Origin: an uncultured Pseudomonadota bacterium
GTDB taxonomy: Bacteria; Pseudomonadota; Gammaproteobacteria; Steroidobacterales; Steroidobacteraceae
NCBI GenBank assembly: GCA_903862885.1
Contig: CAIOZU010000046.1
Span: 1-62,816 of the forward strand
Direction of reading: 5' to 3'
DNA length: 62,816 nt
Shown here piece by piece: positions 7,444-27,972 of the stretch (position 1 is its first letter; the number at the start of each line of letters is the position of its first letter). Under the pieces are notes generated by a model that searched no databases, was not told the origin of the DNA, and saw only the letters and a list, made by a program, of their open reading frames with translations. Both the position numbers and the translations under genes were made by a program.

Positions 7444-7467
7444 AAAGCGCACCGCCGTCGTACTTTT

Positions 7468-9883: not shown

Positions 9884-10137
9884 CGGACCTCTCCTGTCCA
9901 ACCGCACCAACGGAGTAAAAGGCGGTGGCCAATCGTAGCATAAGACCGACCTCGCACCCCCCCGACCGGTTGCGAGGCAAAGCCACCGACTTTTTTAAAT
10001 GAGCCATCGTCAGCGTACGCGGCGAGCGAGCCTTGGCCGCACCGCAAGCTCAAGGGCCTATCGGGGGTCGCGGGAGGGGTCTTGAGCCCAAATCAAGGGT
10101 CATTGGCCTGTCTCGGCAACCACCCGACGCGTCCGTC

Positions 10138-10166
10138 TTGACACTCGCCGCCAAAACCCGTCTGAT
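10138..10166 (+). promoter_or_regulatory. Candidate sigma-70 promoter of the AraC regulator
   Basis: TTGACA at 10138-10143 is a perfect -35 hexamer. After a 17-base spacer comes TCTGAT at 10161-10166, which matches four of six -10 positions. It lies about 20 bases before the regulator start, in the 300-base region between this gene and the divergent P450 operon. Confidence 0.35.
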
Positions 10167-10185
10167 TCAGGGTCTGATCAGGTGA

Positions 10186-11046: not shown

Positions 11047-11370
11047 ATCCTCGTCTTCGCCGCGGCGCCTCCTCAGTGAGGCTATGCGCAGCCAACCAGC
11101 CACTGCGGCCAGGGGTCCAGCGTACACGGGGCGCGCGCTCCGCCTCCCGTCTCCCCCGCTCACACACAAAGCACAGCCAAAGGAGCCGAGCGCCTTCGCG
11201 TCGAGTCGTTGACGCACCCGACACATAGCCTGAAGCAACCACGCTTACCCTACCTGGCCAATCGCTTATTAACTCTGGCCAACGCAACACCGAGCGACTC
11301 GCACCGATTGAAACGCGCATCCACTCAGTGCTAGATTGACCCAGTCCGCACACTCAGACGGGGAAGCACC
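11047..11370. other. Intergenic region between the AraC regulator and the dehydrogenase
   Basis: These 324 bases hold no convincing gene on either strand. Long antisense frames are low-complexity Arg/Ser-rich shadows. The promoter of the alcohol dehydrogenase should lie near 11310-11360. I see no strong hairpin with a T-run. Confidence 0.4.
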
Positions 11371-12399
11371 ATGTCATCTGCCAACGCCCGCACCCGCCAC
11401 ACGCTCTTTGTTTCAGCGGTTGATCAACTGGTCGTTAAAGAGCGCGCCCTACCTGCGCTTGGCCGTCTGGACGTGTTGATACGCGTCGAAGCCTGTGGCA
11501 TCTGCGGTAGCGATCTTGGCTATCTCGCTGCCGGTGGATTACCGATGACCCGCAATCAACCCTTGGCCATCGGACATGAGTTGGCCGGTATCGTGGAAGC
11601 CGTCGGACCCGATGTCATCGGCATCACACCCGGCGTACGCGTCGTCGTCAATCCCGATGTCAACGGGATTGGCGCAGGCGCCCCTGAAGCGGGGTTCTCT
11701 GACTGGCTGGTCATTCCCAACGCACAGCTTGGACACAATCTCTTACTCGTACCGCATCAGCTTAGCCCAGAGATTGCTGCCTTGACTGAGCCACTCGCCG
11801 TGGGTCTGCATGGAGTCAATCAAGCGCGTATTTCTGCCAGCAGTCAGGTGGTCGTGTTTGGCGTCGGCATGATCGGACTGGGCGCGGTGATCGGGCTCAA
11901 ACGGCGCGGTGTCAAACACATCCTAGCGGTTGATCTAAATGACACGCGCCTCGCCTTGGCACGACGCTATGGGGCGCACGCCACCATCAATCCCGCCCGC
12001 GATGATCTGACGAGTCTTCTTGGCAAAGAACACGGCGTGGGCGAGCGCTATGGATGGCCGGTGGTGGGCACGGATGCTTTTATCGACACGGCCGGATCAG
12101 CCACCCTTCTGCAGAACGCACTGGGTGTAGCAAAAGCACGCGCCCGGGTGGTCATTATCGCGATTCACCAAAAGCCAGTGGCTCTCGACTTGCTCATGCT
12201 GATGGGCAAGGAACTTGAGATTATCGGCTCTTGTTCCTACCCGCAGGAAGAACTCACTGAGGTGCTCAATGCGCTCGCTGCGGGTGAGTTTGATCCCTCT
12301 GCCTTGATCACTCACCGCTTTCCGTTTTCTCAAGTCACCGACGCGTTCGATTGTGCCCGCGCCGGTGGAGATGCCATCAAGGTGATGGTCACTTTTTAA
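11371..12399 (+). CDS. Zinc-dependent alcohol dehydrogenase (MDR superfamily)
   Basis: The 342-residue protein has the medium-chain dehydrogenase layout: catalytic zinc ligands Cys45 (CGICGSD), His69-Glu70 (IGHELAG) and Glu140 (LTEPLAV), then a Rossmann domain with VFGVGMIGLGAV and an acidic VDLND that favours NAD(H). The stretch 93-115, where relatives carry a four-cysteine structural zinc lobe, has no cysteine, so that site is missing. The closest known relatives are butanediol, sorbitol or threonine dehydrogenases, but the substrate is not determined. A GGGGAAG ribosome site precedes the ATG. Its position after the AraC gene suggests oxidation of an alcohol or diol from the P450 pathway. 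Confidence 0.85.
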   Translation: MSSANARTRHTLFVSAVDQLVVKERALPALGRLDVLIRVEACGICGSDLGYLAAGGLPMTRNQPLAIGHELAGIVEAVGPDVIGITPGVRVVVNPDVNGIGAGAPEAGFSDWLVIPNAQLGHNLLLVPHQLSPEIAALTEPLAVGLHGVNQARISASSQVVVFGVGMIGLGAVIGLKRRGVKHILAVDLNDTRLALARRYGAHATINPARDDLTSLLGKEHGVGERYGWPVVGTDAFIDTAGSATLLQNALGVAKARARVVIIAIHQKPVALDLLMLMGKELEIIGSCSYPQEELTEVLNALAAGEFDPSALITHRFPFSQVTDAFDCARAGGDAIKVMVTF

Positions 12400-12418
12400 A
12401 GAAAAAAACCGCGCGATA

Positions 12419-12450
12419 CGCCCCCTCAGGGGCGCTCCGTGCGTAGCGCC
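12419..12450 (-). terminator. Candidate terminator between convergent genes
   Basis: Two overlapping hairpins lie here: CGCCCC/GGGGCG at 12419-12434 with a four-base loop, and GGCGCC-type arms at 12431-12436 and 12445-12450. On the minus strand the first is followed by about ten bases and then a run of seven T. The distance to the T-run is longer than usual, so the call is tentative. Confidence 0.4.
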
Positions 12451-13806
12451 TTACCCGGCAAAGTCATCCAACAGCAAGAAGCCCGTCGGTGCGATGCCAC
12501 CCACTGCATCGGTCACGACTACGGTGTAGATCCCAAAGGCATCGACGGTCAAGGTCACAGGACCGGCGATGACCGTCTTGGTGCCTGGCGCGGTCAGGGT
12601 TAAATCATAAGAGCCGGCAGCGATCTCCTGAAACGCACTAAACCCCTGGAATGGCACATTGGCGAACCAAGGCGTACCCGTGGCCACACCCGCTGCTGGG
12701 GCAGTCAGATACAGATCAACGGACCCACTGCTCAGTGACCCGTGCACAATACGAAGCTTCGCCGCCGTGGCGAGCCGTCGTCGGTTATCCCACGTCGATT
12801 CAGTGACAAAACTGGTCAGACTACCTAAGGCGTACACGGTCCGCTCCTGACCGGCCCATAAGGTGAGCGCTTGAGTGCCGAGTGCGGCAACCCCGGCCGT
12901 TGGCACAAACGAAAAACTATAATCGCCAGGTACCACGGGCAAGTAAGGGGTCGCTTGGGAAAAACCGAGACCGTTGACGATCGGCGTCGTCACCGCCGCA
13001 AGGGTCGCCGTGATGTTCATGGCAGGCACATTCCCCGCAGCATGAACAAATCGCACCTGCGCCGGGGTGTTGACGTCATACACAAGCCCGTTATTACCCC
13101 ACGCATCGACCGCCGCTAACACGATGGGCGATGCGCCTGGCCCTGTGTTTTGCACGGCCGTGATCACTAAGTCCGTGCCGCCCACCAAGGAGATGGTTCC
13201 TGAATCAAAGAGCACCGGTGAGGTGACACCAGCCGGTGTCACGCGGATTTGATAAGAGCCTGAGGGCACATCGAGCGGGCCGATCGCCGCTTGATAGGCC
13301 ACCGACCCACCGCCCAAAGGCTGGCTGGTCGTTAAATCAGCGCCGGGGGCGGTGACGTACACAGACACCGCGGGCGCCTCAGGCGCCGCATGCAGAATCT
13401 GCACCCGCGTGGCGGTCGATGCCACCACCGACAAGGGATGCGGGAAAATATGCGAACTGATATTCGCTGTCACGCCCTCAATCGCAATCACGAAGTCATT
13501 GTCGGCCAGAAAATCAACCGTCTGAGGCCCTAGGACCACAACAGGGCCTGCCGGTGTATTGGCCTGAACCGTGACGGTGTGGGAGCCCGCAGGCAGTGTC
13601 GCCTCGCCTAAGCCATCACCGTAGTTAAGGCAACTGCACCACACTTGGCCGTCAATCAAAACGGTCACCCGCGGCGCATCAGGTGAGGCATGCACCACTT
13701 GAAATCGGGCGGTGGGTGCGGCCGGCGTATCCGAATGATGACTAGAGGAACACGCAGCGAGCAGCAACAGCATGCCCGACACCATCCATCGACCTAACAT
13801 AGACAT
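12451..13806 (-). CDS. DUF4397-domain lipoprotein
   Basis: The 451-residue product has a signal peptide ending in LLLAACSSS, a clear lipobox, so it is a lipoprotein. The mature protein is built from repeated modules starting FQVVHASPDAPRVTVLIDG, VQILHAAPEAPAVSVYV, VRFVHAAGNVPAMNI and LRIVHGSLSSGSVDLYL, which is the DUF4397 pattern of beta-sandwich repeats found in cell-surface proteins. No catalytic motif is visible. The frame is open to 13905, but the signal peptide starts at the ATG at 13804-13806, with AAGGGG upstream. It stands alone between convergent and distant neighbours. A role in surface structure or adhesion is inference. Confidence 0.85.
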   Translation of the reverse strand: MSMLGRWMVSGMLLLLAACSSSHHSDTPAAPTARFQVVHASPDAPRVTVLIDGQVWCSCLNYGDGLGEATLPAGSHTVTVQANTPAGPVVVLGPQTVDFLADNDFVIAIEGVTANISSHIFPHPLSVVASTATRVQILHAAPEAPAVSVYVTAPGADLTTSQPLGGGSVAYQAAIGPLDVPSGSYQIRVTPAGVTSPVLFDSGTISLVGGTDLVITAVQNTGPGASPIVLAAVDAWGNNGLVYDVNTPAQVRFVHAAGNVPAMNITATLAAVTTPIVNGLGFSQATPYLPVVPGDYSFSFVPTAGVAALGTQALTLWAGQERTVYALGSLTSFVTESTWDNRRRLATAAKLRIVHGSLSSGSVDLYLTAPAAGVATGTPWFANVPFQGFSAFQEIAAGSYDLTLTAPGTKTVIAGPVTLTVDAFGIYTVVVTDAVGGIAPTGFLLLDDFAG

Positions 13807-13966
13807 GACGGGCCCCTTAAATACGGCGATAGTGCACAGAGCAAAATCATAAACCAGCCCACGCGGCGGCGACGTCGCCGACCCAAAAACCGCAAACTCG
13901 CCCACACATTTTTAATGAGCGCTTGACCCATCCCTCGCCCCCCGGCGCGAGGCCGACCACCGAGCC

Positions 13967-15487
13967 TTATGAGGCACGCACCGCGTCTCTGTCCTTAAAC
14001 GGCGGTGCGTGCGTGCAACTGCCCACCGGCCGCGGGCAGCCATTGCGACGCGGACAAATGATACTGGCCCGATGACCAACCGCCTCGCCTACCCAATGGA
14101 TATTCAGCACCTGCGACACCGCCCGAATCGCTTGAACCGCCTTGGGTGGAATCTCCCCGTCCCCACTCCCGAGACACGATTGCTCCACCGCGTGAGCAAT
14201 CTCCTCGCCATCAAAACCCTGCGCCTCTAATGCCGGCACCAGATCAACGCCCACCGACAGGACGTGCATCGCATCACTGGCATCTTGTGTTTGCATCGAG
14301 TGGCAGCAGTACAAACGCGAGCGATTCCCATCGTGCATAACGGAGACCTGAGACCGCGGTGTCTGCGCACTGGGATGCGCAGACACCTCCTCATGCAATA
14401 AGCGAAAGACCGCCCACTGCGGACAGGGATCAGAGACTAAAGTCATGTTACCCCAAGGCAGTGGAATACCATTGCCACGGTAGACCGCACGCAGATAGCC
14501 GGGCGGATAGGCGTCAAAGTAGTGCCAATGCCGATAAGGCGACACCGCCGTCATCCGCCGCATCACCACCGCCGCGGTGACACCGAGCTTATGACAGGCC
14601 AACACGCTGTGCGCCTCGCGGCTCAAAAACCGTCGAAACGGCACCCGCGGACACAGCAAAGCCCCGGCAAACACGCTGCATTCAAAGTCACGCCACGCGT
14701 ACAGAACATCCTGCTTTCCCATACCGCCGGCCACGACCACTTCAGGCCCGTCACTCGAACCATGCGCGGTGTGCGCGGAGATCAAGCCATCCCCATCATG
14801 CAATATCTTATGACCCGCAAAGAAGGCCAACTCGTACTTCAGGCGCTCTTCTTGGTGACGCAAGCGCTCATTAATCACAATCGTATGAGGTGGCTCAAAG
14901 CGTGAACGCACCAATGCATCGGTACGGCCATTTAACTCGCCGGTAAACCAGCGGATCTGCAGACCCAGTTTTTTGACAATGTCGAGCAGTCGGGCGGACG
15001 ACAGCGGCATCTCACGCTGGCCTAATTGTTCAGCGGCACGCTCGATATCCGGAAAGTCGTTTTGGTGTGTCTCCTGCCATACGCGAATCAGCAGCTGGGC
15101 AAACTGACGGCCACTGGTGCCGGTTTGACCCAATAATTCCGGGAGCGCATTACGCAAAAGCTCGTGCGAGAACAAAAACGCGGGTTCTAAGGGCATGGCC
15201 TCCAACCCCCCCCGATCAGCTCGCGCGATCACCGGCTCCAAGGGTTCGTTGTCATCCAAAAACCAACGGACCTCCTTGCTGAACACCCCGGCTAACAACT
15301 CCAACATCGCCATCGCCGGCACCCGTCGGCCGTTCTCTACCATGCTGAGGTAGGACACCGACGGCGCGCGCGCCGCATCCACCTGCACACAGCGCGCGGA
15401 GAGCTCCTCCAAGGTCAAGCCATTGCGCTTGCGAAGCGTCTTAAGCTTCGCGCCTAAAAAGTGACCTTGGCGGATGAGACTGACCAT
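13967..15487 (-). CDS. XRE-family ScfR/RamB-type regulator (short-chain fatty acyl regulator)
   Basis: The 506-residue protein starts with an XRE helix-turn-helix (LKTLRKRNGLTLEELSARC, then SYLSMVENGRRVP), continues with an IrrE/ImmA-like middle section and ends in the DUF2083 region with the CPRRNGC motif near residue 480. This is the layout of RamB, PccR and MccR regulators, which sense short-chain acyl-CoA and control glyoxylate, methylcitrate or propionyl-CoA genes. It is divergent from aceK-aceA, so regulation of the glyoxylate shunt is the natural inference. No good ribosome site precedes the ATG, so the transcript may be leaderless. The direct repeats at 15490-15523 directly upstream may be its operator. 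Confidence 0.88.
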   Translation of the reverse strand: MVSLIRQGHFLGAKLKTLRKRNGLTLEELSARCVQVDAARAPSVSYLSMVENGRRVPAMAMLELLAGVFSKEVRWFLDDNEPLEPVIARADRGGLEAMPLEPAFLFSHELLRNALPELLGQTGTSGRQFAQLLIRVWQETHQNDFPDIERAAEQLGQREMPLSSARLLDIVKKLGLQIRWFTGELNGRTDALVRSRFEPPHTIVINERLRHQEERLKYELAFFAGHKILHDGDGLISAHTAHGSSDGPEVVVAGGMGKQDVLYAWRDFECSVFAGALLCPRVPFRRFLSREAHSVLACHKLGVTAAVVMRRMTAVSPYRHWHYFDAYPPGYLRAVYRGNGIPLPWGNMTLVSDPCPQWAVFRLLHEEVSAHPSAQTPRSQVSVMHDGNRSRLYCCHSMQTQDASDAMHVLSVGVDLVPALEAQGFDGEEIAHAVEQSCLGSGDGEIPPKAVQAIRAVSQVLNIHWVGEAVGHRASIICPRRNGCPRPVGSCTHAPPFKDRDAVRAS

Positions 15488-15489
15488 TT

Positions 15490-15523
15490 TGTGAAGTTTA
15501 CAGTGTGAAATTTCGATTGTGAA
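15490..15523. promoter_or_regulatory. Three TGTGAA direct repeats with 14-bp period, candidate operator
   Basis: TGTGAA occurs at 15490-15495, 15504-15509 and 15518-15523, so the copies start exactly 14 bases apart. The array is AT-rich and lies in the gap between the start of the ScfR-type regulator and aceK. RamB/PccR-type regulators are known to bind TTTGCAAA-like direct repeats, and this spacing would place the copies on nearly the same face of the helix only loosely. Binding by the adjacent regulator is inference. Confidence 0.45.
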
Positions 15524-15644
15524 AATATTTAGTGCAATCCCCTAAGATCAGCCCACGGCTGTCCGGTAATCCGCGATTAAGCTATTGTTTTTATTAGTTA
15601 TATTAGTATTTTATCCCTTCGCTGCTTACGCCCCTAGTCACGCT

Positions 15645-17375
15645 ATGCGCACTGAACTGCCGACCGCACCGCCCCAGGCCGATACCCCTCGCCCCCTGCG
15701 AGCGGCGATGCTCATCGCCCATCACTTTGTGGTCTACAACGCCGCCTTCCGGCGTCTGACCGAGCGGGCCGCCCAGTCCTTCATCGATTGCCGTTGGTTA
15801 GAGGCCAGCGCCGATGCCATGGCAAGAATCGAACTCTACGAGCAGCACGTCGCCTACTGCGTACACGCCATCACGCCGGACTTGGCCGAGGCACGAACGG
15901 ACATACGCACCTGGGACCTCATTAAAAAAGCCTACGACCAGCATATCCGCCGCTCGCCTGACAGCGATCTGTTCCGAACATTCTTTAACTCGGTGACTCG
16001 CGACCTCTTCTCCACGGTGGGGGTCAATGCCGATGTCGAATTCTGCACACCCAGCAGCACGCACGGCTCAGGCTCCGTCCCCATGTGCATCTATCCCATT
16101 GGGGGAGCGCTGCAAGGTGCGATCGAAGCGATTCTCAGTCACCTAAGCTTTATCACGACACCCGCGGTGAGATCAGCGGCTGTTCAACAGATCACACTGA
16201 GCATTGGCCGACACTTTCATACTCGCCTGCAAAGTGCCGGACCCGAATGCATCGAAATCATTGACGCCATTTTTTACCGAGGACAGCGTGCCAGCCTCGT
16301 CGGACGTCTGGTGAGTGACAGCACGATCACGCCGCTGGTCATCGAATTTTCAAACTCCGCCCGCGGCATCCGCGTTGAAAACGTCCTGCTGATGCGCCAC
16401 GAAATCGGCCGATTTTTTGGCTTTACGCGCTCTTATTTTCAGGTCGACTTACCGGTCGTGGGGGCTGCGGTTACCCTGTTGCGCTCCTTCATGCCACACA
16501 AGGCAACCGACGAGCTCTACACCGTGCTCGGCCGCGCCAAACAAGGAAAAACCGAGCGTTATTTCACTCTACGCCGTCATCTCTCCCTGTCCATTGACAC
16601 CTTTGTCCATGCACCCGGCCAGCGCGGACTGGTCATGATGGTATTTACCTTACCGTCCCATGATTTGGTGTTTAAAATTATTCGCGATCGCTTTGGGCCA
16701 CCCAAAAACACCTCGCGTGCCGAAGTCATGGCGTGCTACGAATGGGTCTTCCGCCACGAACGCGCCGATCGATTGGTCGATGCTCAGGAATTCCGGCAAC
16801 TGCGCCTACCGGTATCGCGATTCATGCCCTCGCTACTGGAGGAATTGCTCACCGAGGGGAGCGAGACCTGCGTCTTAGATGGTCAAGATCTCATTATCAA
16901 GAGCTGTTACATCGAGCGTCGTCTACGACCCCTTGACGTGTTTCTTCGTGAAGCAGACCCTGCGGCCAGCGAAGCCGCCATCATTGACTACGGTAATGCC
17001 CTGCGTGATTTAGCGGCCAATAATATTTTTCCAGGCGACTTACTGCTGAAGAACTTTGGCGTCACCAAAAGTGGCCGCGTCATCTTTTACGACTATGACG
17101 AATTGTGCGAGGTCACAGACTGCCATTTCCGTGATCCACCGAGTGCCCAATCGGATGAAGAGGACTTAAGCGCAGACCCTTGGTATTACGTTGGCCCGCG
17201 CGATGTCTTTCCGGCGCAATGGCTGCCTTTCCTCGGCATGTCAGACACCCTAAAAGAGGTGTTTCTGCAGCACCACGCAGAGGTGTTAACCGCGCAATGG
17301 TGGCGAGAGCGGCAAAGTGCCGCGGCCAAGATCAGCCCACCCGCCGCACCGGCGCTTGCCACGGCAACCCTATGA
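15645..17375 (+). CDS. aceK: Isocitrate dehydrogenase kinase/phosphatase
   Basis: The 576-residue protein is a full-length AceK, which phosphorylates isocitrate dehydrogenase to divert isocitrate into the glyoxylate shunt and reverses this when needed. Recognisable parts are the N-terminal regulatory region with YNAAFRRLTERA, the ATP-site region around VFTLPSHDLVFKIIRDRFG with PPKN after it, and the conserved ERRLRPLDVFL and PGDLLLKNFGVT segments. The frame extends to a TTG at 15585, but that extension encodes a chance hydrophobic stretch. The ATG at 15645 gives the usual start. It precedes aceA by 80 bases, whereas in enterobacteria aceK follows aceA. Confidence 0.95.
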   Translation: MRTELPTAPPQADTPRPLRAAMLIAHHFVVYNAAFRRLTERAAQSFIDCRWLEASADAMARIELYEQHVAYCVHAITPDLAEARTDIRTWDLIKKAYDQHIRRSPDSDLFRTFFNSVTRDLFSTVGVNADVEFCTPSSTHGSGSVPMCIYPIGGALQGAIEAILSHLSFITTPAVRSAAVQQITLSIGRHFHTRLQSAGPECIEIIDAIFYRGQRASLVGRLVSDSTITPLVIEFSNSARGIRVENVLLMRHEIGRFFGFTRSYFQVDLPVVGAAVTLLRSFMPHKATDELYTVLGRAKQGKTERYFTLRRHLSLSIDTFVHAPGQRGLVMMVFTLPSHDLVFKIIRDRFGPPKNTSRAEVMACYEWVFRHERADRLVDAQEFRQLRLPVSRFMPSLLEELLTEGSETCVLDGQDLIIKSCYIERRLRPLDVFLREADPAASEAAIIDYGNALRDLAANNIFPGDLLLKNFGVTKSGRVIFYDYDELCEVTDCHFRDPPSAQSDEEDLSADPWYYVGPRDVFPAQWLPFLGMSDTLKEVFLQHHAEVLTAQWWRERQSAAAKISPPAAPALATATL

Positions 17376-17455
17376 GTGACCGCAGTGGATGACTTAAACC
17401 ACGGGGACGCCCTTTTTGCTTGTTTTGTCCATTATTGTTTAGGAGTTTTGTCACG

Positions 17456-18760
17456 ATGAATAGATCCGATAAGCCCTCACTGCCGACCAGCGCACAGCTG
17501 ACCCAGATGTGGGCTACTCACCCACGGTGGCGCGGCATTACCCGTCCGTATAGCGCAGACGACGTCGTGCGCCTGCGCGGGACCATTCCCGTTGAGCACT
17601 CGATTGCGCGCATCACCTCTGAAAAGTTATGGGACTATGTGAATCACAAGCCCCTAGTCAATGCACTCGGTGCACTGACCGGCAATCAGGCGTTGCAGCA
17701 GGTGAAAGCGGGCTTGGATGCGATCTATCTGTCCGGCTGGCAAGTCGCGGGTGATGCGAATCGCTCAGGCCACATGTATCCTGACCAATCGCTGTACCCA
17801 GCCGATTCAGTCCCCGATGTCGTCAATCGGATAAATAACACGCTCAGACGCGCCGATGAGATCTCCCATGCGGAGGGGGATGATTCGACTGATTGGCTAA
17901 AGCCGATTGTTGCGGATGCTGAAGCAGGCTTTGGTGGGGTACTGAATGCCTTTGAGTTAATGAAGGGCATGATCGAGTCAGGTGCCGCCGGCGTTCACTT
18001 TGAGGATCAGCTGTCATCTGCTAAAAAATGCGGACATATGGGCGGCAAGGTACTGGTCCCCACCCAAGAGGCGATCCAGAAGTTGGTGGCCGCCCGCTTA
18101 GCAGCCGATGTGTGCAACGTACCCACTGTGCTGATCGCGCGTACCGACGCGGAATCCGCCACCCTCATCACCGCCGACGTCGACAGCCGCGATGTGCCCT
18201 TTATCGACCAAAAGAAAGGCCGCACCACCGAGGGCTTCTTCCACGTGCGTGCAGGCCTCGAACAAGCGATTGCTCGCGGACTGGCCTATGCCCCCTACGC
18301 TGACATGCTGTGGTGCGAAACCGGTCATCCAGATATTGAGGAAGCGCGTCAATTTGCGGATGCCATCCATCGGGTCTATCCAGGCAAACTACTGGCCTAC
18401 AACTGTTCACCCTCTTTTAACTGGAAGCGAAAGTTGGATGATGCCACGATCGCCAAATTCCAAGTCGAGTTGGCGGCCATGGGCTATAAGTTCCAGTTCA
18501 TCACCTTAGCCGGCTTCCACGCGCTCAATTACGCCATGTTCGATTTGGCGCACGGCTACAAAGATCGGCAGATGTCTGCGTATGTGGCCCTACAAGAGGC
18601 CGAGTTTGCCGCGGAAAGTCGCGGTTACACCGCCACCAAGCATCAGCGAGAGGTGGGCGCTGGTTATTTTGATCAGGTCACCCAGACGATCACGGCAGGG
18701 GCGTCATCATTAAGCGCCCTCGTGGGCAGCACGGAGGAGGAACAGTTTCACGCCCCTTGA
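17456..18760 (+). CDS. aceA: Isocitrate lyase
   Basis: The 434-residue enzyme splits isocitrate into succinate and glyoxylate, the first step of the glyoxylate shunt used for growth on acetate or fatty acids. The catalytic loop [18 protein letters not shown] and the metal-binding and substrate residues around [10 protein letters not shown] and HFEDQ are intact. The ATG at 17456 has AGGAG 10 bases upstream, and its start [14 protein letters not shown] fits the family. It follows aceK and is closed by a strong terminator. No malate synthase is present in the window. Confidence 0.97.
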
Positions 18761-18837: not shown

Positions 18838-19869
18838 TCACACACGCTCGGCTGACTTTTCTTTGTCCATCAAGGTCTGCACCCGCCGCCTAAACCGCAG
18901 GGGCGCTGCATCCGTGGCAATATCAATATTCGGTGTCATCGATTCGTCAAAGCCCTGCTGGACTGCATTGAGCACTCGGCGATCCTCCTCAAACGCAAAG
19001 CGCACCCCGTTGGCCATCAGGGTCGACATATGTTCATCGTGCGGCAGCACATTGCGCATCTGAAACCAAAAATAACGCGTCTGCGTCGCATCCACTGGTG
19101 TCAGAAAATTATAAGAGTCCATCACAAAGGCCGCTGGATGTTGAGACGCGTCTGGACCACCGACACCCGCCGGCACCAAGACGGCCTTGATTAAGGCGTT
19201 ACTGGGATAGCGCACTTCATAATGCTGTAGCCGATCGCAGTGGCCCTTAAAGCCCAAGAAAGGCACATACAAGGGCGCGGGCTCAACCGAGCGCATCCAG
19301 CGAGACGCAATCACCCCTTGATCGCTCGCTTGTACCTCAATCGGCGTCGCTTCACAGGCTGTATTGCCAAAGGTGGTCAGATGCACCCAGGCCACATGCG
19401 AAGGATCAAGCAAATTATCAGTCATATACAGGTAATGACAGTTAACCGTCATCGCATCGCCGCGGGTAACACCCCACGAGGGATCGCCCCAGTGCTCGAC
19501 CTCGAAGATCTCGGATTCATTCACGAGCTCTGCAGGCCCCATCCAGATCCACAGCAAGCCATAGCGTGCCACCACCGGGTAGCTGCGAACACGAGCACCC
19601 TTAGGAATGCGATCGGCACACGGCATATGCACGCAGGCACCCGAGCGATCGTAGCGAAGACCGTGGTAGCCGCACATGACGTGATCGCCCTGAATGCTGC
19701 CCATGGATAAGGGCAGCTTTCGGTGCGCACACGCATCCTCAAGTGCCACAGGATTCCCATTGGTCTGTCGATAGAGCACCACCCGCTCATTTAACAGTTT
19801 CACCGGCAGCAACTGATCGGTTAACTCAGCATCCAGTGCCGCCACATACCACGCATTTCGCACAAACAT
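18838..19869 (-). CDS. Rieske non-haem iron oxygenase, VanA-like oxygenase subunit
   Basis: The 343-residue protein starts MFVRNAWYVAALDAEL, typical of vanillate O-demethylase-like (VanA) oxygenases. The Rieske cluster ligands are Cys47, His49, Cys66 and His69 (CAHR...CGYHG). A mononuclear iron site follows with DNLLDPSHVAWVH. Enzymes of this group remove O- or N-methyl groups or hydroxylate aromatic acids, using a separate reductase that is not encoded here. The frame is open to 19989, but the ATG at 19867-19869 has AAAGGTG upstream. It is the last gene of the operon TonB receptor - lyase-like - Rieske - Rieske, 31 bases after the previous stop. Confidence 0.9.
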   Translation of the reverse strand: MFVRNAWYVAALDAELTDQLLPVKLLNERVVLYRQTNGNPVALEDACAHRKLPLSMGSIQGDHVMCGYHGLRYDRSGACVHMPCADRIPKGARVRSYPVVARYGLLWIWMGPAELVNESEIFEVEHWGDPSWGVTRGDAMTVNCHYLYMTDNLLDPSHVAWVHLTTFGNTACEATPIEVQASDQGVIASRWMRSVEPAPLYVPFLGFKGHCDRLQHYEVRYPSNALIKAVLVPAGVGGPDASQHPAAFVMDSYNFLTPVDATQTRYFWFQMRNVLPHDEHMSTLMANGVRFAFEEDRRVLNAVQQGFDESMTPNIDIATDAAPLRFRRRVQTLMDKEKSAERV

Positions 19870-19900
19870 AGCTGACACCTTTAATACCAACCGCCGTGGC

Positions 19901-21034
19901 TCATTCCGTACCGAGCGCGCGACTGATGTACTGCCAAAAATCCCAGATGGTTCCCTCAAACGCATCAGGCGCCAAGGGTCCCGGCACATAGTGACGGCTG
20001 TGCAGTCCGATATGCAGTCGCTCTAATTGCATCCGATCTTCTGCGCTGAATTTCTTACAAAACTCGACATAATCTTTAACTACCGGCGACTGCGGGTCAG
20101 CCGTCATACCCGTCACACCCCAACGGATTCCGACCGTTCCCGTCGTCAGCGGGCGCAGACACATGTACAAGGTAAAGTGCGGACAAAAACCGACGACAAA
20201 ACTCGGGTAGACACAATAAAACACATCCGATCTCTGCTCTTGACGGGTGAGATCCCCACTAAAAGGACCCCGCTCGGGACAATCCGGATGGAAATTGGAT
20301 CGATAACCGGTAAACGCAGGACCGTCCGACAGTTTTTCGCATAAGGCGGTGGGTGTGACCGCATGTAAGGTGGTCGCATGCAAGGGACTTAAGTGGTAAC
20401 CCTCCATGAAGTTCTCGACAAGACTCTTCCAGTTCGTATTCCACACCTCGTCCGCGCAAAACACATGATGCTGCTGCTCGGGATGGTAATTACGAATATG
20501 TGGTATCGCGGCGGCGAGCGTCGGCGCCAATGGTGCGGCTTGCCCATCCAAGTTCACAAACAGATAGCCGTACCACCGCTCTGAGGCCAGGGTGGTCAGG
20601 GCACAGTCTTTCTTTTTAAAGACCTCGCTCTCCACCATCAAGGGTGCGGCCAGCAAGCGACCATCTAAGCCGTAGCTCCACGCGTGATAACTACACACAA
20701 AGCGACTGGCATTCCCAGCGCCCTGCGCCACCGGACTGCCGCGGTGACGACAGACGTTAGAAAACACCCGGATATCACCATCCGCCGATCGCACCACCAA
20801 CAAGGGCTCACCGACCAACTCCGTTGTAAAGTAATCACCCGCCGCGGGCACTTCTCCTTCATGACCAATGCAGATCCACTGGGTACGAAATAACCGGTCG
20901 CGTTCTAGAGCGGCAAAGTCGGGCGAGGTATAAAACTCACCGGACATGGCCCGCGCTTGACTGCGCGCCTGACCTTTAACCGCGGCGAGGCGGGCTAACA
21001 ACTCAGACAGACGGGACGGGGCTTGGCTAGTCAT
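19901..21034 (-). CDS. Rieske dioxygenase alpha subunit, glycine-betaine/carnitine oxygenase-like
   Basis: This 377-residue protein has Rieske ligands Cys95, His97, Cys114 and His117 (CRHRGS...CSYHAWSYG) and a mononuclear iron site in ENFMEGYHLSPLHA with His214 and His219. The ENxxExYHxxxxH form is common in oxygenases acting on quaternary amines such as glycine betaine, stachydrine or carnitine, but also in other ring-hydroxylating enzymes, so the substrate is uncertain. Its ATG at 21032-21034 lies 8 bases inside the lyase-like gene (the sequence ATGACTAG), so the two are translationally coupled. The longer frame to 21262 is a shadow. A reductase partner is not nearby. Confidence 0.88.
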   Translation of the reverse strand: MTSQAPSRLSELLARLAAVKGQARSQARAMSGEFYTSPDFAALERDRLFRTQWICIGHEGEVPAAGDYFTTELVGEPLLVVRSADGDIRVFSNVCRHRGSPVAQGAGNASRFVCSYHAWSYGLDGRLLAAPLMVESEVFKKKDCALTTLASERWYGYLFVNLDGQAAPLAPTLAAAIPHIRNYHPEQQHHVFCADEVWNTNWKSLVENFMEGYHLSPLHATTLHAVTPTALCEKLSDGPAFTGYRSNFHPDCPERGPFSGDLTRQEQRSDVFYCVYPSFVVGFCPHFTLYMCLRPLTTGTVGIRWGVTGMTADPQSPVVKDYVEFCKKFSAEDRMQLERLHIGLHSRHYVPGPLAPDAFEGTIWDFWQYISRALGTE

Positions 21035-22526
21035 GGCCGGCGTCCAATAAACGATCAATAAAGCCGTGCTCCCGTACCGCTGACACAATGGCTCGCATGT
21101 TGAAAACGCGAGTCCCCTCTTCACCAATAGGCAACAGCGGCCGAAGCGTCGCATAGACGTGCCGCGGCCCCTCACCCAAATCGCTTGCGGCAATATCCCG
21201 TCGCGCGATAGCCCACACACCGATCGCCATCTCAAGCGCCACCATCTCCCACGCCAACTCAATCACCCGCTTGGTTTGCGTGACCGATAAGGGCAGCAGG
21301 CTGGTCACATCCTCCACGCTGTCTGCGGTATGCCCAATATAGTGAAGCAGCACCGGACCTGCGGCGGCAAGCAACGAGCCCATGCGTGCAGAACCGATGT
21401 AATTCAGATTCAGGGACAACACCCCGCCATCTGCAGCCCCATCGGCAGCCAGCCCCACCGGCAGTCCGGTAAAGGGGGGCGACTGCAGTTTGAGCGCACG
21501 CTCCATACTTTGAATGGATACTTTAGCGAGGATTTGTCGCAAGGCATCCATCGACACTGCCGGCAGCAACGACACCATGCTTGATGAAGTAAAGAGTTCA
21601 CCGCTGGCTAAATCCACCAGCGGGTTATCAGCCGAGGCGTTGATTTCCCCCTCAAATTGCTTCTCAGTCCAACTCAGCACATCGAACGCCGCACCATGGA
21701 TCTGCGTGATGCTGCGAAAACTGAGAGGGTCTTGTAAGAACCTCGCCTGGTCAGGCTGGTGCAAGCGACTACCAACCAGTGCTTTCGCTAAATTCTTACG
21801 GGAGCGCGCTTGCCCTTCACCATCGTGGCCGGCCGCTGCCTGTGCGTGCGCTCGAAGCCCGCCTCGAATACCCTCAAGCGCAGTCGCCGCAGCAAGTTCA
21901 AAGCCCCGCAGCAAGCGATCCACCTCCACCAATACCAGTGCGCCCGCACCCAAGCCAAAGGCATTGCAATCAATGAGAGAGACCGACTCCTTAGGCGCCA
22001 GATCAAAGCGATCAGCGAAGATCGGCGGCTTCTCATCCAGAGAAAGACCGAGCAGTGCCAAACTTAACTGCGATAAGGGCGTGAGATCGGCCGTACCGTA
22101 GGAGGTGTCATCACGCACCGTCGGCATCTGTGGAGAGGCATAAAGCGCAAGCAAGCGTCGTACCAATTCAGGCCGTACGCCCGTATTCCCTCGGGCCATA
22201 TTATTGATAAGAACCACCAAGCAAGCACGCACCGTACGATCCGAGGCCGCAGGGCCCGGAAAATCGGTAGACTCACTGATGATCATGCGATTACTGAAGT
22301 CGGCTAGATGAGCGTCAGCGACTTCCACATCTTTTTGCGAACCAATACCCGTGTTGGCTCCATAGATGGTGGCGCCGGCGGCTAACTGTCGCTCGACAAT
22401 GGCACGCGAAGCCGCTACCCGTGCCCACGCCGTTGGCGTCAAGTCAACTGCCCCACAGCGACCTGCCAGGTCGGTCACTTGACCGACTGACAAGCCACTG
22501 CCATCAAAGGTGTAAATCACGGACAT
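21027..22526 (-). CDS. Aromatic ammonia-lyase family protein lacking the MIO triad
   Basis: The 499-residue protein has the overall histidine/phenylalanine ammonia-lyase fold signature: YGANTGIGS at 55-63, DLTPLSQLSLALLG near 147, and SADNPLVD at 298-305. Yet the Ala-Ser-Gly triad that cyclises into the MIO cofactor is replaced by Gly-Thr-Ala (144-146), the Tyr of the QDxYSxR motif is Leu268 (QDPLSFR), and the usual LLNG is LIDC. It therefore probably does not use standard MIO chemistry. MIO-independent relatives such as ergothionase remove trimethylamine from a betaine. Whether this protein does something similar is inference. It is the second gene of the operon, 13 bases after the TonB receptor. 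Confidence 0.85.
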   Translation of the reverse strand: MSVIYTFDGSGLSVGQVTDLAGRCGAVDLTPTAWARVAASRAIVERQLAAGATIYGANTGIGSQKDVEVADAHLADFSNRMIISESTDFPGPAASDRTVRACLVVLINNMARGNTGVRPELVRRLLALYASPQMPTVRDDTSYGTADLTPLSQLSLALLGLSLDEKPPIFADRFDLAPKESVSLIDCNAFGLGAGALVLVEVDRLLRGFELAAATALEGIRGGLRAHAQAAAGHDGEGQARSRKNLAKALVGSRLHQPDQARFLQDPLSFRSITQIHGAAFDVLSWTEKQFEGEINASADNPLVDLASGELFTSSSMVSLLPAVSMDALRQILAKVSIQSMERALKLQSPPFTGLPVGLAADGAADGGVLSLNLNYIGSARMGSLLAAAGPVLLHYIGHTADSVEDVTSLLPLSVTQTKRVIELAWEMVALEMAIGVWAIARRDIAASDLGEGPRHVYATLRPLLPIGEEGTRVFNMRAIVSAVREHGFIDRLLDAGHD

Positions 22527-22539: not shown

Positions 22540-25026
22540 TTAGAACTTGTAACCGATCCGCAAGTTCACAGTCCGCGGACGATTTGGGGTCACTAGGTGC
22601 ACCGTCGTGAACCCATTATTTACGTACAACTGGGCGCGCTTATCGGTCAGATTCTGACCCGCCAGTTCGACACTCCAAGCGCCCTGCTTAACGCCCACGG
22701 ACGCATCATACAGCGTGTAAGGCTCTTGATTCTGGCGTGGCGACTCAAAATTACCCACGTTGATGACCGATGACCACGAATGCGCTGTGTGCGTGGCTCC
22801 GACTTGTAGGTAGGCATTGACGGCACCCACCGGTATTTCATAGCGCGCACGCACATTCCCCTGAAAGGGCGGGCTTTGCGCGAGTGTGCTGCCCACACCG
22901 TCAGTGGGAAACAAAGCCACCGGCACGGTGACCGGTGGATCACCGACTTGACCCAGAATGCTCGGTGAATTCTGTTGGGAACTGCTATTCCATGCAAAAG
23001 AAGACATCAATGTGAGATGCTCGGTCGCATTAAAAATCAGATTGCCTTCCATGCCGCGCACCCGGTAATTGGGTCCATTCGCGACAAAGGTTTGAAAGCC
23101 ATACACGGCGGGTTCAAATATAGACAACTGCACACTTGACCAGTCCTCTTGGTAAATGGCGCCGTCGAACTGTAAGTGATTATTCAGCCAACTGGTCTTC
23201 CAGCCGATTTCTTTGTTTTTCAAAGTGTCCGGCGCGTAGTAAAGCGGGAGCTTAAAGTTGGTGTTAGCGAGTGGCGAGTAGCTCGGCAAGAACCCTTGAC
23301 CACGATTAAAGCCACCGGCTCTGAATCCCTCTGAGTAGGTGGCATAGACCATGACACCCTCCATGGCTTTCCAGCTCAAGTTAAACTTGTTTTTGTGACC
23401 GGTGAAGGTTTTATGCAAGTGCTCAGCATCCAAGTTATGGCCGTCTGGGCATTGCCCCGTTGGCACGCCACGACAGTAATATGCCGAATTAGACGACCCC
23501 AGTTCATAGGTATTAATACTGTAGAGACGCGTCCCCACGGTCAAAGTGACCTGCTTAGGTAATAACTCGTAACTGACCTCACCAAACGCCGCTTTCTGCT
23601 TATATCCGCGTGTGATGTCATCAAAAAAGGTCACCCCGGCCGGTCGAATTGAAGGATCGATGGCGGTACTGCCGGCTGCGGGCGCCTGACCAAAGAATCC
23701 CGCATCGGCCGTCGTGTACTGCCAGTTGGTGACATCCTCAATTTTATAATCTTCGTAGAACAGCCCACCGATCGCGCGTAGCCGCTTATCATCTGGCGTA
23801 CTCACCCGCACTTCATGCGACTGGTGGGTATTGCGCTCGATGTCATACCACACGGAACTTGGCGAGTAACAGTTGTCAGCCCCGGTGGTGGTGCCGGTAT
23901 AAAGACTGGGCCCGTTACACTGATAAGCGGTTCCGTTAATACCCCGTGAGTACGATGTGTAATCTTGCTGCTCATTGACACGGTGATCCAAAAATCCACC
24001 GGTGTACACCACCTTTAAATCACCGATGTGGCCATTGATGGTGAGCGCCGTGTCTTCGAATTTGTCTTTATTGAACGACGGGTTGTATTCCTGCACATTT
24101 AAATCGCCCAATACGGGCGCGTAGGCGTAGGATCCTTCGGCATTAATCTTCTGGTAACTTTGCTGAATCAACACATCCCACGCATCATTGATTTTATACA
24201 GAGCGGATAGACGAACTCCCTTATATTCGCTGGGGTTATACGCTTTGTTAACCAACGATTTATTTGAGAGCGTCTGACTATTAGCCGGCACGACGCCACC
24301 AAAATAATACTGAACACCCGGATCACTCGGTAAGCGCTCAAAGGTGCCCGGGATATTGTGGATATAGCCACCGCGCTTGTCGTCATAGACCACCGCACGA
24401 ACGGCTAAAGCGCCCGCTATCACGGGTAGATTCAACGTGCCCTCAACGCTGTGGCTGGGATCGCCATGTGCGGTCGTTGAGGTACTGACATTCACTGCCC
24501 CCTCTATGGTGTCGAGCTTGGGCTTATTGGTGATGTAACGAATCGCACCCGCCTGAGCACCCGATCCATACAAAGTGCCCTGTGGGCCTTCGAGTACTTC
24601 GATGCGCTCAATATCGGCTGCATACACATCGAGGTTGCGACTCGGCAACTGAGCGGACTGGTCATCTAAGTAGACCGCCACGTTGGGGAAGTTATTGATT
24701 CCTCCACCGCCTTGTGCGCCACCCTGGGTGGTTGACAGACCGCGCATGTAAATCTCATTGATGCCAGGACCCTTGCTGGCACTGCTCACGTTGGGCAGAT
24801 ACTTCACATAATCGTCAAAGGTCTGCACGTTGAGCTGCGAGAGTGTTTCACCGGTGAGCGCCGTGATGGCAATGGGCACATCCTGCAAATTTTCAGCGCG
24901 ACGCGTGGCCGAGACCACGATCTCCTCAATGGCGCCGCTGGCATCAGCGGCCAGGACGCCTTGGGCATACGGCGCGCTCAGTACGGTCGCGATGACATAA
25001 GAGAGTCTTGAATAGCGGCGCATCAT
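22540..25026 (-). CDS. TonB-dependent outer-membrane receptor
   Basis: The 828-residue protein has a signal peptide, an N-terminal plug domain (IEEIVVSATRRAENLQDVPIA at 32-52, RIEVLEGPQGTLYGSGAQAG near 140) and a long beta-barrel that ends in NLRIGYKF with a terminal Phe, all typical of TonB receptors of the iron-complex outer-membrane class used for catabolic substrates in environmental bacteria. AAGGGG precedes the ATG. It is the first gene of the operon with the lyase-like protein and the two Rieske oxygenases, so it probably imports the substrate they process. The substrate is unknown. Confidence 0.95.
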   Translation of the reverse strand: MMRRYSRLSYVIATVLSAPYAQGVLAADASGAIEEIVVSATRRAENLQDVPIAITALTGETLSQLNVQTFDDYVKYLPNVSSASKGPGINEIYMRGLSTTQGGAQGGGGINNFPNVAVYLDDQSAQLPSRNLDVYAADIERIEVLEGPQGTLYGSGAQAGAIRYITNKPKLDTIEGAVNVSTSTTAHGDPSHSVEGTLNLPVIAGALAVRAVVYDDKRGGYIHNIPGTFERLPSDPGVQYYFGGVVPANSQTLSNKSLVNKAYNPSEYKGVRLSALYKINDAWDVLIQQSYQKINAEGSYAYAPVLGDLNVQEYNPSFNKDKFEDTALTINGHIGDLKVVYTGGFLDHRVNEQQDYTSYSRGINGTAYQCNGPSLYTGTTTGADNCYSPSSVWYDIERNTHQSHEVRVSTPDDKRLRAIGGLFYEDYKIEDVTNWQYTTADAGFFGQAPAAGSTAIDPSIRPAGVTFFDDITRGYKQKAAFGEVSYELLPKQVTLTVGTRLYSINTYELGSSNSAYYCRGVPTGQCPDGHNLDAEHLHKTFTGHKNKFNLSWKAMEGVMVYATYSEGFRAGGFNRGQGFLPSYSPLANTNFKLPLYYAPDTLKNKEIGWKTSWLNNHLQFDGAIYQEDWSSVQLSIFEPAVYGFQTFVANGPNYRVRGMEGNLIFNATEHLTLMSSFAWNSSSQQNSPSILGQVGDPPVTVPVALFPTDGVGSTLAQSPPFQGNVRARYEIPVGAVNAYLQVGATHTAHSWSSVINVGNFESPRQNQEPYTLYDASVGVKQGAWSVELAGQNLTDKRAQLYVNNGFTTVHLVTPNRPRTVNLRIGYKF

Positions 25027-25134: not shown

Positions 25135-25193
25135 TTAAGTTTTGCTAAACTCACAGTCGCCTAGCCCACCGACCTACTGTGCAGCACCACCGG

Positions 25194-26111
25194 ATGAATC
25201 CCTTACCCCCCTTAGCAGCCCTTCGCGCCTTCGAAGCGGTCGGTCGCGCCGGCAGTGTCCGAGAGGCCGCCGCAGAGCTCGCGGTCTCTGCGGGCGCCAT
25301 CACACAGCACATCCATACGCTCGAACGCCATTTGGATCGCCGCTTGGTACAACGCAGCGGTCGAGGCATCGAACTCACCGCACTGGGCAAAATTTATTTA
25401 TCGCATCTCAGCAAAGGCTTCAGTGAACTGCACAAAGCGCAGGAAGCGATCGACAGCGAGAAGCGCTCTAACCACCTCGTTATCAGCACCTTCCCCTCCC
25501 TGGCGAGCAAGTGGCTAGCACCGCTGTTATTTATTTGGAGAAATCAAAACCCACACAGCAGTGTCATGATCAGTGGCGTTCACCCCGAACCCCAACTGGA
25601 TGAAGCGGAAGCCGACTTTCGTGTGTCTTATGGGGAACGACATCGCTACCACCGTCGCTACACCCACCTGTTCACGGACCGCGTCATCGTGGTGGCCAGT
25701 CCCAGCCTCTTGGCGCGCACCGGCCCCCTCCTGACGCCAGCCCACCTACTGACACAGCCCCTTTTATGGGTGGATTGGGGCAACGAATATCTGGCACTGC
25801 CCTCCTGGCAAGATTGGTTCGCTAAAGCCGACGTCGCCTGCAAAACTCTGCACCCGGATTTAGTCTTCTCATTTCCAGCCGCGGCGGTCGATGCCGCCAT
25901 CGAAGGACAAGGCATTGCACTGGTGCAGTATTCTCTGGCGACTAGCGCCTTGGCCTTAGGCTCTCTGGTGCGCGTTCTGCCCCTTGAAATACCGCTCGCA
26001 GAAGCGCACTTTCTGGCGTGGAGCAGCTCCGCGTTAGAGAAACCCTTGGGCGCTGCTTTTCAAACTTGGATCATTAACGAGGCCCGACGCTTTGATACGC
26101 CACTGTACTGA
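25194..26111 (+). CDS. LysR-family transcriptional regulator (GcvA-like)
   Basis: The 305-residue protein has the LysR helix-turn-helix at the N-terminus (LAALRAFEAVGRAGSVREAA, then ELAVSAGAITQHIHTLE) and a substrate-binding domain behind it. The pattern LRAFEAVGR...VSAGAITQHI is closest to the GcvA/TrpI subgroup. A GTG at 25179 gives a longer form, but the ATG at 25194 starts at the normal family position. It is divergent from the TonB-lyase-Rieske operon and is the obvious candidate regulator, with the substrate or a product as ligand. Confidence 0.92.
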   Translation: MNPLPPLAALRAFEAVGRAGSVREAAAELAVSAGAITQHIHTLERHLDRRLVQRSGRGIELTALGKIYLSHLSKGFSELHKAQEAIDSEKRSNHLVISTFPSLASKWLAPLLFIWRNQNPHSSVMISGVHPEPQLDEAEADFRVSYGERHRYHRRYTHLFTDRVIVVASPSLLARTGPLLTPAHLLTQPLLWVDWGNEYLALPSWQDWFAKADVACKTLHPDLVFSFPAAAVDAAIEGQGIALVQYSLATSALALGSLVRVLPLEIPLAEAHFLAWSSSALEKPLGAAFQTWIINEARRFDTPLY

Positions 26112-26151
26112 CTCACTCACCCTCGGCCGCCGGGTTGCTGCGTTCCTCGCG

Positions 26152-27972
26152 ATGAGCCTCCTGGTGTTGTGCACCGCCTGCTCATCCTCCACCGCCGTGA
26201 CCCCAAAGGCGATGGAGCCATCGAGCACACGTTCCATTCAGCAAGGTCTGATCACCGGATTCAGCGATGCACAGGGTGGCCACACGTGGTTGGGCATCCC
26301 CTATGCCGCACCACCGGTGGGCCCGCTGCGCTGGCGCCCACCGCAGCCCGCCAGCGCGTGGAGCGGCATGCACTCCGCACTGCAGGCGGGGCCCGCGTGC
26401 ATCCAGTATGGCTGGCCACTCGGTGGGCTCGGCAAGAACGGCAGTCACCAAGGACAAGAGGATTGCTTGTACCTGAACATCCACGCACCGCACATCGACC
26501 CAGACGCTCTACCGACTACTCGCTTACCCGTCATGGTGTGGATTCATGGGGGTGCGAACACCATCGGTCAAGCCGTTGACTACGACGGGAGCCATCTGGC
26601 CCATAGTCAAAATGTCATTGTGGTGACCCTCAACTATCGGCTCGGTCCGTTTGGTTGGTTCATTCTGCCAAGCGGTGGAACGCCCGATCAGCCACCGCGA
26701 AGCGGGCTCGATGCATCCGGTAATTGGGGGACGCTCGATACCCTCGCCGCACTGCGCTGGGTTCAAGACAATATTGAGGCCTTCGGCGGTGATCGAGGCA
26801 ACGTGACGCTGTTTGGTCAATCGGCGGGTGCGACCAACACACTCGCATTACTGGTATCCCCTTTAAGCGAAGGGCTTTTTCAGCGCGTCATCATCCAAAG
26901 CCTCGGCTTTGGTCTCGCGCCCATGGATCGCATGTCGCATGCCATCGATGACCCGCAACCCGGCACCGAATACAGCAGCACCGAAATTTTACTTAAACTC
27001 CTACAAAGCCAAGGACGTGCCACCGATCGAGCTCAGGCCAAAGCCTTGGTAGCGACATTAAGCAATGATCAGATCGCCGACTTCCTGCGCAGTATCGATC
27101 CCTGGACGCTCTACACCACCTACCACCCATCGACGCTCGCGACCGCCAAATTCCCCACTGTCTTCCAAGACGGCACGGTGATTCGCCAAGGTGATCTGAG
27201 CGACTTATTGGCTGACCCTAAACGCCATCTCGCCGTCCCCGCCATCGTCGGCACCAATCGCGATGAAGCGAAAATGTTCATGGCCTTTGATCCTCGGCTG
27301 GTAGTGACCTTGGCAGGCTTGCCGGTGTGGATCAAGAACTCGGCGGTGTACGAACGAGAATCCCACTATCGAGCCCTTCTTTGGAAAGCCAATGGTGTCG
27401 ATCAATTAGCCGCCGCACTGAACGCGGGTGGCTCGACGACTTACGCCTACCGTTGGGACTGGCGCGAAGAGGGTCGACATTACGGGTTTATTGACGCCAG
27501 TCGCTTAGTCGGTGCCTCGCATGGACTGGAGATTCCTTTCGTGTTCGGCAACTTCACGATCGGATCCTCATCCACACTGCTCTTCAATAAAGATAATGAA
27601 GCGCCTCGCCTACGACTCAGTGAAGCGATGATGAGCTATTGGGGACACTTCGCGCACAGCGGCGATCCCAACCAAGGCAGACACCCCACTGAACCTATCT
27701 GGCCCGCTTGGCAGGCCACCGAACAGGACCCAGCGCTGATGGTGTTTAATACGGACGCTCAGGGTGGCGTCCGCGCCAGCAATGAACGGACGTCTAAAGA
27801 GCAAGTACTTGCCCTCATGGAGGCTGAAGAACCCAACGACCTGAGCGCGTGCCGTATGTTTGTGGCCACTTTTCGTGACCGCTTCAACACCTGGGCCGAC
27901 CAGGTCTGGCCTACCTTCAAACATGGCCTATGCAGTGTCCAGATCAGCGCACGGCGACCTCTACCGCCGTGA
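26152..27972 (+). CDS. Carboxylesterase type B, exported
   Basis: The 606-residue enzyme is an alpha/beta-hydrolase of the cholinesterase/carboxylesterase family. The oxyanion motif WIHGGANTIG, the nucleophile elbow LFGQSAGATN, an acid candidate in GTNRDEAKMF and the histidine segment GASHGLEIPFVF complete the triad. The N-terminus is a signal peptide (LLVLCTACSSS) and may be a lipoprotein signal, though Cys at -3 is not ideal. The ATG at 26152 was chosen over the upstream TTG because it starts the signal peptide. The frame begins inside the end of the LysR gene. It probably hydrolyses esters in the periplasm. The substrate is unknown. Confidence 0.92.
   Translation: MSLLVLCTACSSSTAVTPKAMEPSSTRSIQQGLITGFSDAQGGHTWLGIPYAAPPVGPLRWRPPQPASAWSGMHSALQAGPACIQYGWPLGGLGKNGSHQGQEDCLYLNIHAPHIDPDALPTTRLPVMVWIHGGANTIGQAVDYDGSHLAHSQNVIVVTLNYRLGPFGWFILPSGGTPDQPPRSGLDASGNWGTLDTLAALRWVQDNIEAFGGDRGNVTLFGQSAGATNTLALLVSPLSEGLFQRVIIQSLGFGLAPMDRMSHAIDDPQPGTEYSSTEILLKLLQSQGRATDRAQAKALVATLSNDQIADFLRSIDPWTLYTTYHPSTLATAKFPTVFQDGTVIRQGDLSDLLADPKRHLAVPAIVGTNRDEAKMFMAFDPRLVVTLAGLPVWIKNSAVYERESHYRALLWKANGVDQLAAALNAGGSTTYAYRWDWREEGRHYGFIDASRLVGASHGLEIPFVFGNFTIGSSSTLLFNKDNEAPRLRLSEAMMSYWGHFAHSGDPNQGRHPTEPIWPAWQATEQDPALMVFNTDAQGGVRASNERTSKEQVLALMEAEEPNDLSACRMFVATFRDRFNTWADQVWPTFKHGLCSVQISARRPLPP

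Follow-up and report, generated by a model that had tools for sequence, protein, structure and literature searches.

A MIO-free ammonia-lyase-family protein in an operon with two Rieske oxygenases: a candidate trimethylamine lyase from an uncultured Steroidobacteraceae bacterium

Ergothionase expels trimethylamine by acid/base catalysis and does so without the 4-methylideneimidazol-5-one (MIO) group that ammonia-lyases build from an Ala-Ser-Gly triad; to our knowledge, it is the only member of the PF00221 fold characterised as MIO-free. One report likewise gives the enzyme as lacking MIO and names its products (PMC13405746), and another states that residues at the ring-contact place set substrate choice in the family, with His89Phe shifting a tyrosine ammonia-lyase (TAL) from Tyr to Phe (PMC9002059). 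Here we describe a PF00221 gene, at positions 21027-22526 of the minus strand, on a contig of an uncultured Pseudomonadota bacterium of the family Steroidobacteraceae (GenBank assembly GCA_903862885.1, contig CAIOZU010000046.1); the whole stretch analysed, 62,816 nucleotides, is referred to as the window. Sequence comparisons lead us to propose, with confidence just short of evenly balanced, that the gene encodes a MIO-independent trimethylamine lyase acting on an aromatic or heteroaromatic betaine other than ergothioneine.

A lyase-family protein without the MIO residues

21027..22526, minus strand: MIO-less PF00221 lyase of 499 amino acids, the gene under study (open reading frame, Pfam, NCBIfam, alignment)
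22089..22097, minus strand: codons of Gly144-Thr145-Ala146, the site of Ala-Ser-Gly in MIO enzymes (coordinates derived from codon numbers)
21714..21734, minus strand: codons of QDPLSFR (residues 265-271), with Leu268 in place of the MIO-site Tyr (coordinates derived from codon numbers)

The reading frame is intact, starts at ATG and encodes a protein that belongs to PF00221 (251.5 bits; Pfam gathering cut-off 27.3). The loop triad is Gly-Thr-Ala, the MIO-site Tyr is replaced by Leu268, and LIDC (184-187) stands at the place of LLNG, while YGANTGIG (55-62) and SADNP (298-302) are present; all of these residues are as the initial annotation had given them. The protein scores below the curated cut-offs for hutH (167 against 539 bits for TIGR01225, 176 against 524 for NF006871), and the eight NCBIfam models it matches for histidine (HAL), phenylalanine (PAL) and tyrosine ammonia-lyases and aminomutases are all far under theirs. 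A standard ammonia-lyase was rejected on these scores together with the replaced MIO residues, which support the earlier statement that this is not a normal MIO enzyme. The annotation had also considered an Ala-Ser-Gly displaced elsewhere in the loop; the check found no displaced triad, as the sole Ala-Ser-Gly noticed (A307-S308-G309) lies behind SADNP, distant from the MIO loop, and is missing from the other four orthologs.

Those four intact orthologs, at 85% (in genome G004), 71%, 69% and 60% identity to the window lyase, all lack the three MIO motifs. Across the five intact copies compared, window included, the loop triad is GTA in four and GVA in one (G002), position 268 is Leu in four and Met in the fifth, and Tyr55, Lys65, Gln265, Arg271 and Glu405 are invariant. 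The conserved motif at the LLNG site is LID[CN]N: LIDC holds for the window protein, as annotated, and its Cys is specific to that copy, with Asn in the other four. A decaying gene was rejected on a dN/dS of 0.068 against G004, the only pair for which the ratio is usable, the other three window pairs being saturated at synonymous sites. The loss of motifs is common to all five copies, and there is an 8-bp overlap (ATGACTAG) between the lyase stop and the ATG of the Rieske oxygenase gene that lies downstream, as there is for the G004 ortholog, so that the earlier description of an intact gene overlapping its neighbour stands. An anti-phage role was also rejected, there being no PADLOC match at E 0.001.

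Window-type orthologs are rare. At E<=1e-40, the lyase found matches in 4 of 396 genomes of the order, its own included; at 1e-100, its own genome was the sole match among 369 genomes of the class; and at 1e-70, 398 genomes of the phylum yielded its own genome, G677 and G728. Among 337 genomes of the class to which G728 belongs, a search at 1e-80 matched G728, G677 and G854, the last being of a Rhizobium type. Scanning the contigs of other genomes with the single lyase protein as query gave no locus. A second scan gave five, all in metagenome-assembled genomes (MAGs) with titles including palsa and bog (a palsa isolate is among the related MAG titles): the G004, G395 and G002 copies, locus L040 in G1462, and locus L042. 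This last copy (9863-10666), from a bog MAG, carries an internal deletion and was kept out of alignments and trees.

Relatives and the active-site pocket

The best solved match of the lyase is Treponema denticola ergothionase (6s7j), with 256.9 bits against 185.0 for the best MIO enzyme in a profile search and 143.5 against 97.7 in a single-sequence search, which supports ergothionase, named by the annotation as a MIO-independent member, as the nearest solved relative. The window protein and T. denticola ergothionase (6s7j, 6s7q) share PF00221, the absence of the MIO triad, QDPLSFR, the base Tyr, Lys at window position 65, the Arg and Glu405, but they are 27% identical, and their clades stand apart in the tree, with a support of 49/1 for joining them. 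The normal HutH of the same genome shares the family, Tyr55, Gln265, Arg271 and Glu405, but is 23% identical and has Ala-Ser-Gly, Tyr280 and LLNG, none of which is present in the window protein.

In a tree of 31 rows (root not inferred; the long row PF00221_G036 dropped beforehand), at least four MIO-free groups are found, one of them being the window clade with two sisters. Support is 100/100 for the window clade and 100/100 for its grouping with the sister lyases of G728 and G677. The ergothionase-type rows (T. denticola, Polaromonas, S. meliloti, B. arboris and P. saliphilus) cluster with two long proteins of the window's own genome, L003 and L004 (100/99), six Rhizobium-plasmid-type rows including G854 form another group (93/95), and eight MIO enzymes cluster at 94/91, or at 100/100 together with three rows of a type we call L002.

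Pocket residues were counted over the same 31 rows, with HAL numbering for the HAL sites. Tyr55 and Arg271 are present in 31/31 rows, and the HAL Tyr280 site is Tyr in 8/8 MIO rows and in 0/23 others. Lys65 is found in all twelve window, Ert/Hut-type and ergothionase-type rows and in none of the eight MIO, six Rhizobium-type, three L002-type or two L003/L004 rows. The roles that we assign to the ergothionase residues (base Tyr, with a Lys and Glu set) are presumed. Because the MIO loop and Tyr are lost in all five copies while Tyr55, Arg271 and Glu405 are kept and Lys65 is ergothionase-like, we favour catalysis independent of MIO.

The pocket departs from that of T. denticola ergothionase at sites 85, 186, 317 and 376. 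The ring-contact site, HAL His83, is Glu85 in 5/5 window-clade rows and His in G728, G677 and 5/5 ergothionase-type rows; L003 likewise has Glu there, in a gapped stretch of the alignment. Ring selectivity presumably resides in the Ser-His pair of HALs, which is also visible in the HutH rows here. At the HAL Asn195 site, Asp occurs in the window clade only, where T. denticola ergothionase has Ser, and the loop triad is GTA as against GEG in that enzyme.

The two sister lyases lie in different surroundings. That of G728 (40% identity) adjoins the ergothioneine-utilisation genes for ErtD (784 bits, cut-off 600) and ErtE (586 bits, cut-off 520), the ErtE protein scoring slightly higher against a general Zn-hydrolase model. 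It shares with the window protein the same clade, the GSQK motif and the insert GGV..LN, but it keeps the ring His, its loop reads GAS-D (Ala-Ser without Gly), and around it are UbiD, hydantoin-propionate genes and the binding protein of an ABC transporter rather than a TonB receptor and Rieske oxygenases. At this locus (9322-12196 of contig C2), the UbiD decarboxylase gene follows the MIO-less lyase gene by 7 bp, with ErtD and ErtE close by.

The G677 sister (36% identity) follows HutH and HutU in a hut operon and has one base in common with the end of HutU; the locus (5447-10179 of contig C72), with a normal HutH, HutU and then the MIO-less gene, makes it a candidate hercynine lyase. Since this genome has a single urocanase, it is a fair guess that urocanate is formed from hercynine there. 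An ergothionase-type gene on a P. saliphilus plasmid likewise comes after hutU. Members of the wider lyase group can thus occur in settings where a breakdown of trimethylated histidines would be expected; the window clade is not so placed, and its pocket is different.

The operon and other MIO-free lyases

22540..25026, minus strand: TonB-dependent receptor, 13 bp upstream of the lyase (open reading frame, Pfam)
19901..21034, minus strand: Rieske oxygenase 1, carnitine-monooxygenase/GbcA-like, with Glu in ENFMEGYH; its start overlaps the lyase stop (open reading frame listed from TTG at 21262)
18838..19890, minus strand: Rieske oxygenase 2, VanA_C domain, DdmC-like (open reading frame listed from ATG at 19989)
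25179..26111, plus strand: divergent LysR-type regulator (open reading frame, Pfam, NCBIfam)
26092..27972, plus strand: carboxylesterase (open reading frame, Pfam)

On the minus strand, the order is TonB receptor, lyase, Rieske 1 and Rieske 2; the LysR gene is divergent and is followed by the carboxylesterase, whose reading frame (TTG start as listed) overlaps the LysR end by 20 bp (26092-26111). Gene order is identical in G004, esterase included (L031); the esterase was not seen in the compared clusters L030, L034, L040, L070 and L078. The G1462 cluster (L040) holds LysR, TonB, lyase, both Rieske genes and a major facilitator superfamily (MFS) transporter, and G395 has a rearranged cluster with TonB, both Rieske genes, LysR, the lyase and an MFS-like gene. 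In G002, the lyase lies with a TonB receptor (24% identical to that of the window), an MFS-like gene and an L002-type lyase. The Rieske pair of this genome is elsewhere; beside it are a second MFS-like gene, a TonB receptor more similar to that of the window (52%), a dimethylglycine-dehydrogenase-like DAO+GCV_T oxidoreductase and a class III dehydrogenase of the formaldehyde pathway, which scores 625 bits against TIGR02818 (cut-off 544). Rieske 1 is present in all five genomes that carry the window-type lyase and, at E<=1e-100, in 8 of 217 genomes of the family.

The closest solved match of Rieske 1 is the carnitine monooxygenase CntA (E 5e-33), followed by benzene dioxygenase (7e-29). Its bridging residue is Glu (ENFMEGYH; DNYMECYH in CntA), where benzene dioxygenase has Asp; we take a Glu rather than an Asp between the Rieske and iron sites to be typical of quaternary-amine Rieske monooxygenases. 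The best NCBIfam match is NF058607, the model for glycine betaine monooxygenase (GbcA). Rieske 2 is closest to 7qwt and dicamba O-demethylase. The combination of TonB receptor, lyase, two Rieske oxygenases and LysR regulator suggests a quaternary-amine substrate, and the genes found around the window clade and around its sisters suggest betaines.

Two further loci were noted. At window positions 13967-18760, genes for a DUF3612 helix-turn-helix regulator, AceK and isocitrate lyase lie side by side (glyoxylate shunt). In G007 (5794-10943 of contig C11; L078), a normal HutH, and not a MIO-less lyase, adjoins the Rieske pair and LysR.

The window's own genome (G000) encodes five PF00221 proteins, one of which is the normal HutH (L001); the other four, window lyase included, lack Ala-Ser-Gly.

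Contig C37 (L008), 7186-8688: L002-type lyase, with an MttB-family protein and a DAO+GCV_T oxidoreductase alongside (9878-11452 and 11523-13931)
Contig C53 (L003), 1312-3213: MIO-less PF00221 protein, 633 amino acids
Contig C36 (L004), 1315-3144: MIO-less PF00221 protein, 609 amino acids

The L002 type is MIO-less, has the loop SVGYLSH, groups with MIO enzymes in the tree and occurs in 6 of 18 genomes tested, including all five with the window lyase. It is accompanied by the MttB-family and DAO+GCV_T proteins in both G000 and G004; the MttB-family neighbour scores 640 bits against Pfam MTTB and 307 against the trimethylamine methyltransferase model, under its cut-off of 525. L003 and L004 have starts that by eye resemble signal peptides, and carry QDPESLR and GE[GA]D loops; they are possibly exported lyases. 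Five MIO-free plasmid proteins annotated as histidine ammonia-lyase (L045-L049) all have GAA or GAG for Ala-Ser-Gly, and for four of the five an ornithine cyclodeaminase-family gene is no more than two genes away; their annotated name is probably wrong.

Candidate substrates and chemistry

The proposal of a trimethylamine lyase draws on the ergothionase match, on sisters beside ErtD/ErtE and HutU, on the CntA-like Rieske 1 and its presence in all five lyase genomes, and on the G002 Rieske pair beside DAO+GCV_T and formaldehyde-pathway dehydrogenase genes. The TonB receptor would import an amino-acid betaine, quaternary at nitrogen and bearing an aromatic or heteroaromatic side chain; Arg271 would grip its carboxylate. 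Tyr55 would abstract the beta proton, assisted by Lys65 and Glu405, and an aryl-acrylate would form as trimethylamine departs. Trimethylamine is a good leaving group as it stands, and full alkylation of the substrate nitrogen would remove the need for an electrophilic cofactor. At the ring-selectivity site, Ser84-Glu85 may bind a ring donor such as a phenol OH or indole NH, and the two Rieske oxygenases may act on the lyase substrate or on a related methylated compound, by oxidation or demethylation.

A narrower version is more doubtful, though it deserves consideration: that the substrate is a non-imidazole aromatic betaine of fungi or plants (for example tyrosine, DOPA or tryptophan betaine), chosen by a Ser-Glu selector in place of Ser-His, taken up through TonB and also handled by two Rieske demethylases, in uncultured proteobacteria. 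A need for the new elimination chemistry that the initial annotation thought plausible is not supported, as the MIO-independent trimethylamine lyase ergothionase is already known and the kept residues fit it. The chemistry is known in kind; the subfamily and its operon look new, and the substrate probably is. In the literature searched, outside which most subscription journals lie, no link from hercynine through trimethylamine to urocanate and no hypaphorine-trimethylamine lyase was found, and among the papers listed on hypaphorine degradation none indicated a lyase by title or opening of the abstract.

Several observations weigh against a trimethylamine lyase of this kind. The window clade joins the T. 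denticola ergothionase clade at a support of only 49/1, and Lys383 of that ergothionase (chain numbering) becomes Tyr376 in 5/5 window-clade rows; a lysine at this site is present in 4/5 ergothionase-type rows (S. meliloti being without) and 6/6 Rhizobium-type rows, and in 0/2 of the Ert/Hut type. The alignment of Rieske 1 with CntA covers residues 33-221 only, ring-hydroxylating dioxygenases are not far behind, and the GbcA score is 136 bits, far under the cut-off of 670. The DAO+GCV_T proteins are below every NCBIfam cut-off listed. No window-type lyase was found in G007 and G014, which have the Rieske pair, or in G1463 (82% complete), whose Rieske 1 has an internal stop. The L002-type lyases of G395, G1462 and G1463 lie beside genes other than MttB or DAO+GCV_T, some of which resemble folate genes by eye. 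Finally, N-demethylating Rieske oxygenases and a trimethylamine lyase look redundant on one substrate; the lyase and the possibly N-demethylating partners may serve related substrates.

Trimethylamine elimination from an imidazole betaine, whether ergothioneine, its sulfonate or hercynine, is unlikely but has the nearest solved relative, both sister loci and the HutH beside the Rieske pair of G007 in its favour. The change of the ring His to Glu in every window-clade row and the Asp at the HAL Asn195 site argue against this class as a whole; the change to Glu, together with the missing second ergothionase Lys, argues against ergothioneine in particular. NCBIfam gave no Ert or urocanase match for the lyase and its five neighbours; no genome-wide search for ErtD/ErtE was made. 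A single urocanase was found in each of six genomes searched, on a separate contig in G000; as G728 also has one and yet carries ErtD/ErtE, the lack of a further urocanase in G000 weighs only weakly against ergothioneine.

It is improbable that a MIO-independent lyase here expels another group, such as a partly demethylated amine, a sulfonium or an aryl ether, from an alpha-substituted carboxylate. The four pocket departures from T. denticola ergothionase would suit such an enzyme, and the DdmC-like, O-demethylase-type partner may point to a methoxy-aromatic substrate, but the CntA-like Rieske 1 and the DAO+GCV_T gene beside the G002 Rieske pair suit N-methyl groups better. That the protein is a paralog devoid of catalysis and serves in binding or regulation, as the several replaced family residues might suggest, is very improbable given the five invariant residues, the dN/dS and the translational overlap with Rieske 1. 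An ammonia-lyase building MIO from an unusual triad is scarcely credible despite the PF00221 fold and retained base Tyr and Arg, as the loop triad has no Ser and the Tyr280-site Tyr is confined to the MIO rows.

The window clade and its two sisters form one MIO-free group with its own operon type and pocket. If the window lyase does act on an aromatic betaine and release trimethylamine, it would add to the known sources of that amine, and if the betaine is not an imidazole, a way of turning aromatic betaines into trimethylamine and aryl-acrylates would be opened.

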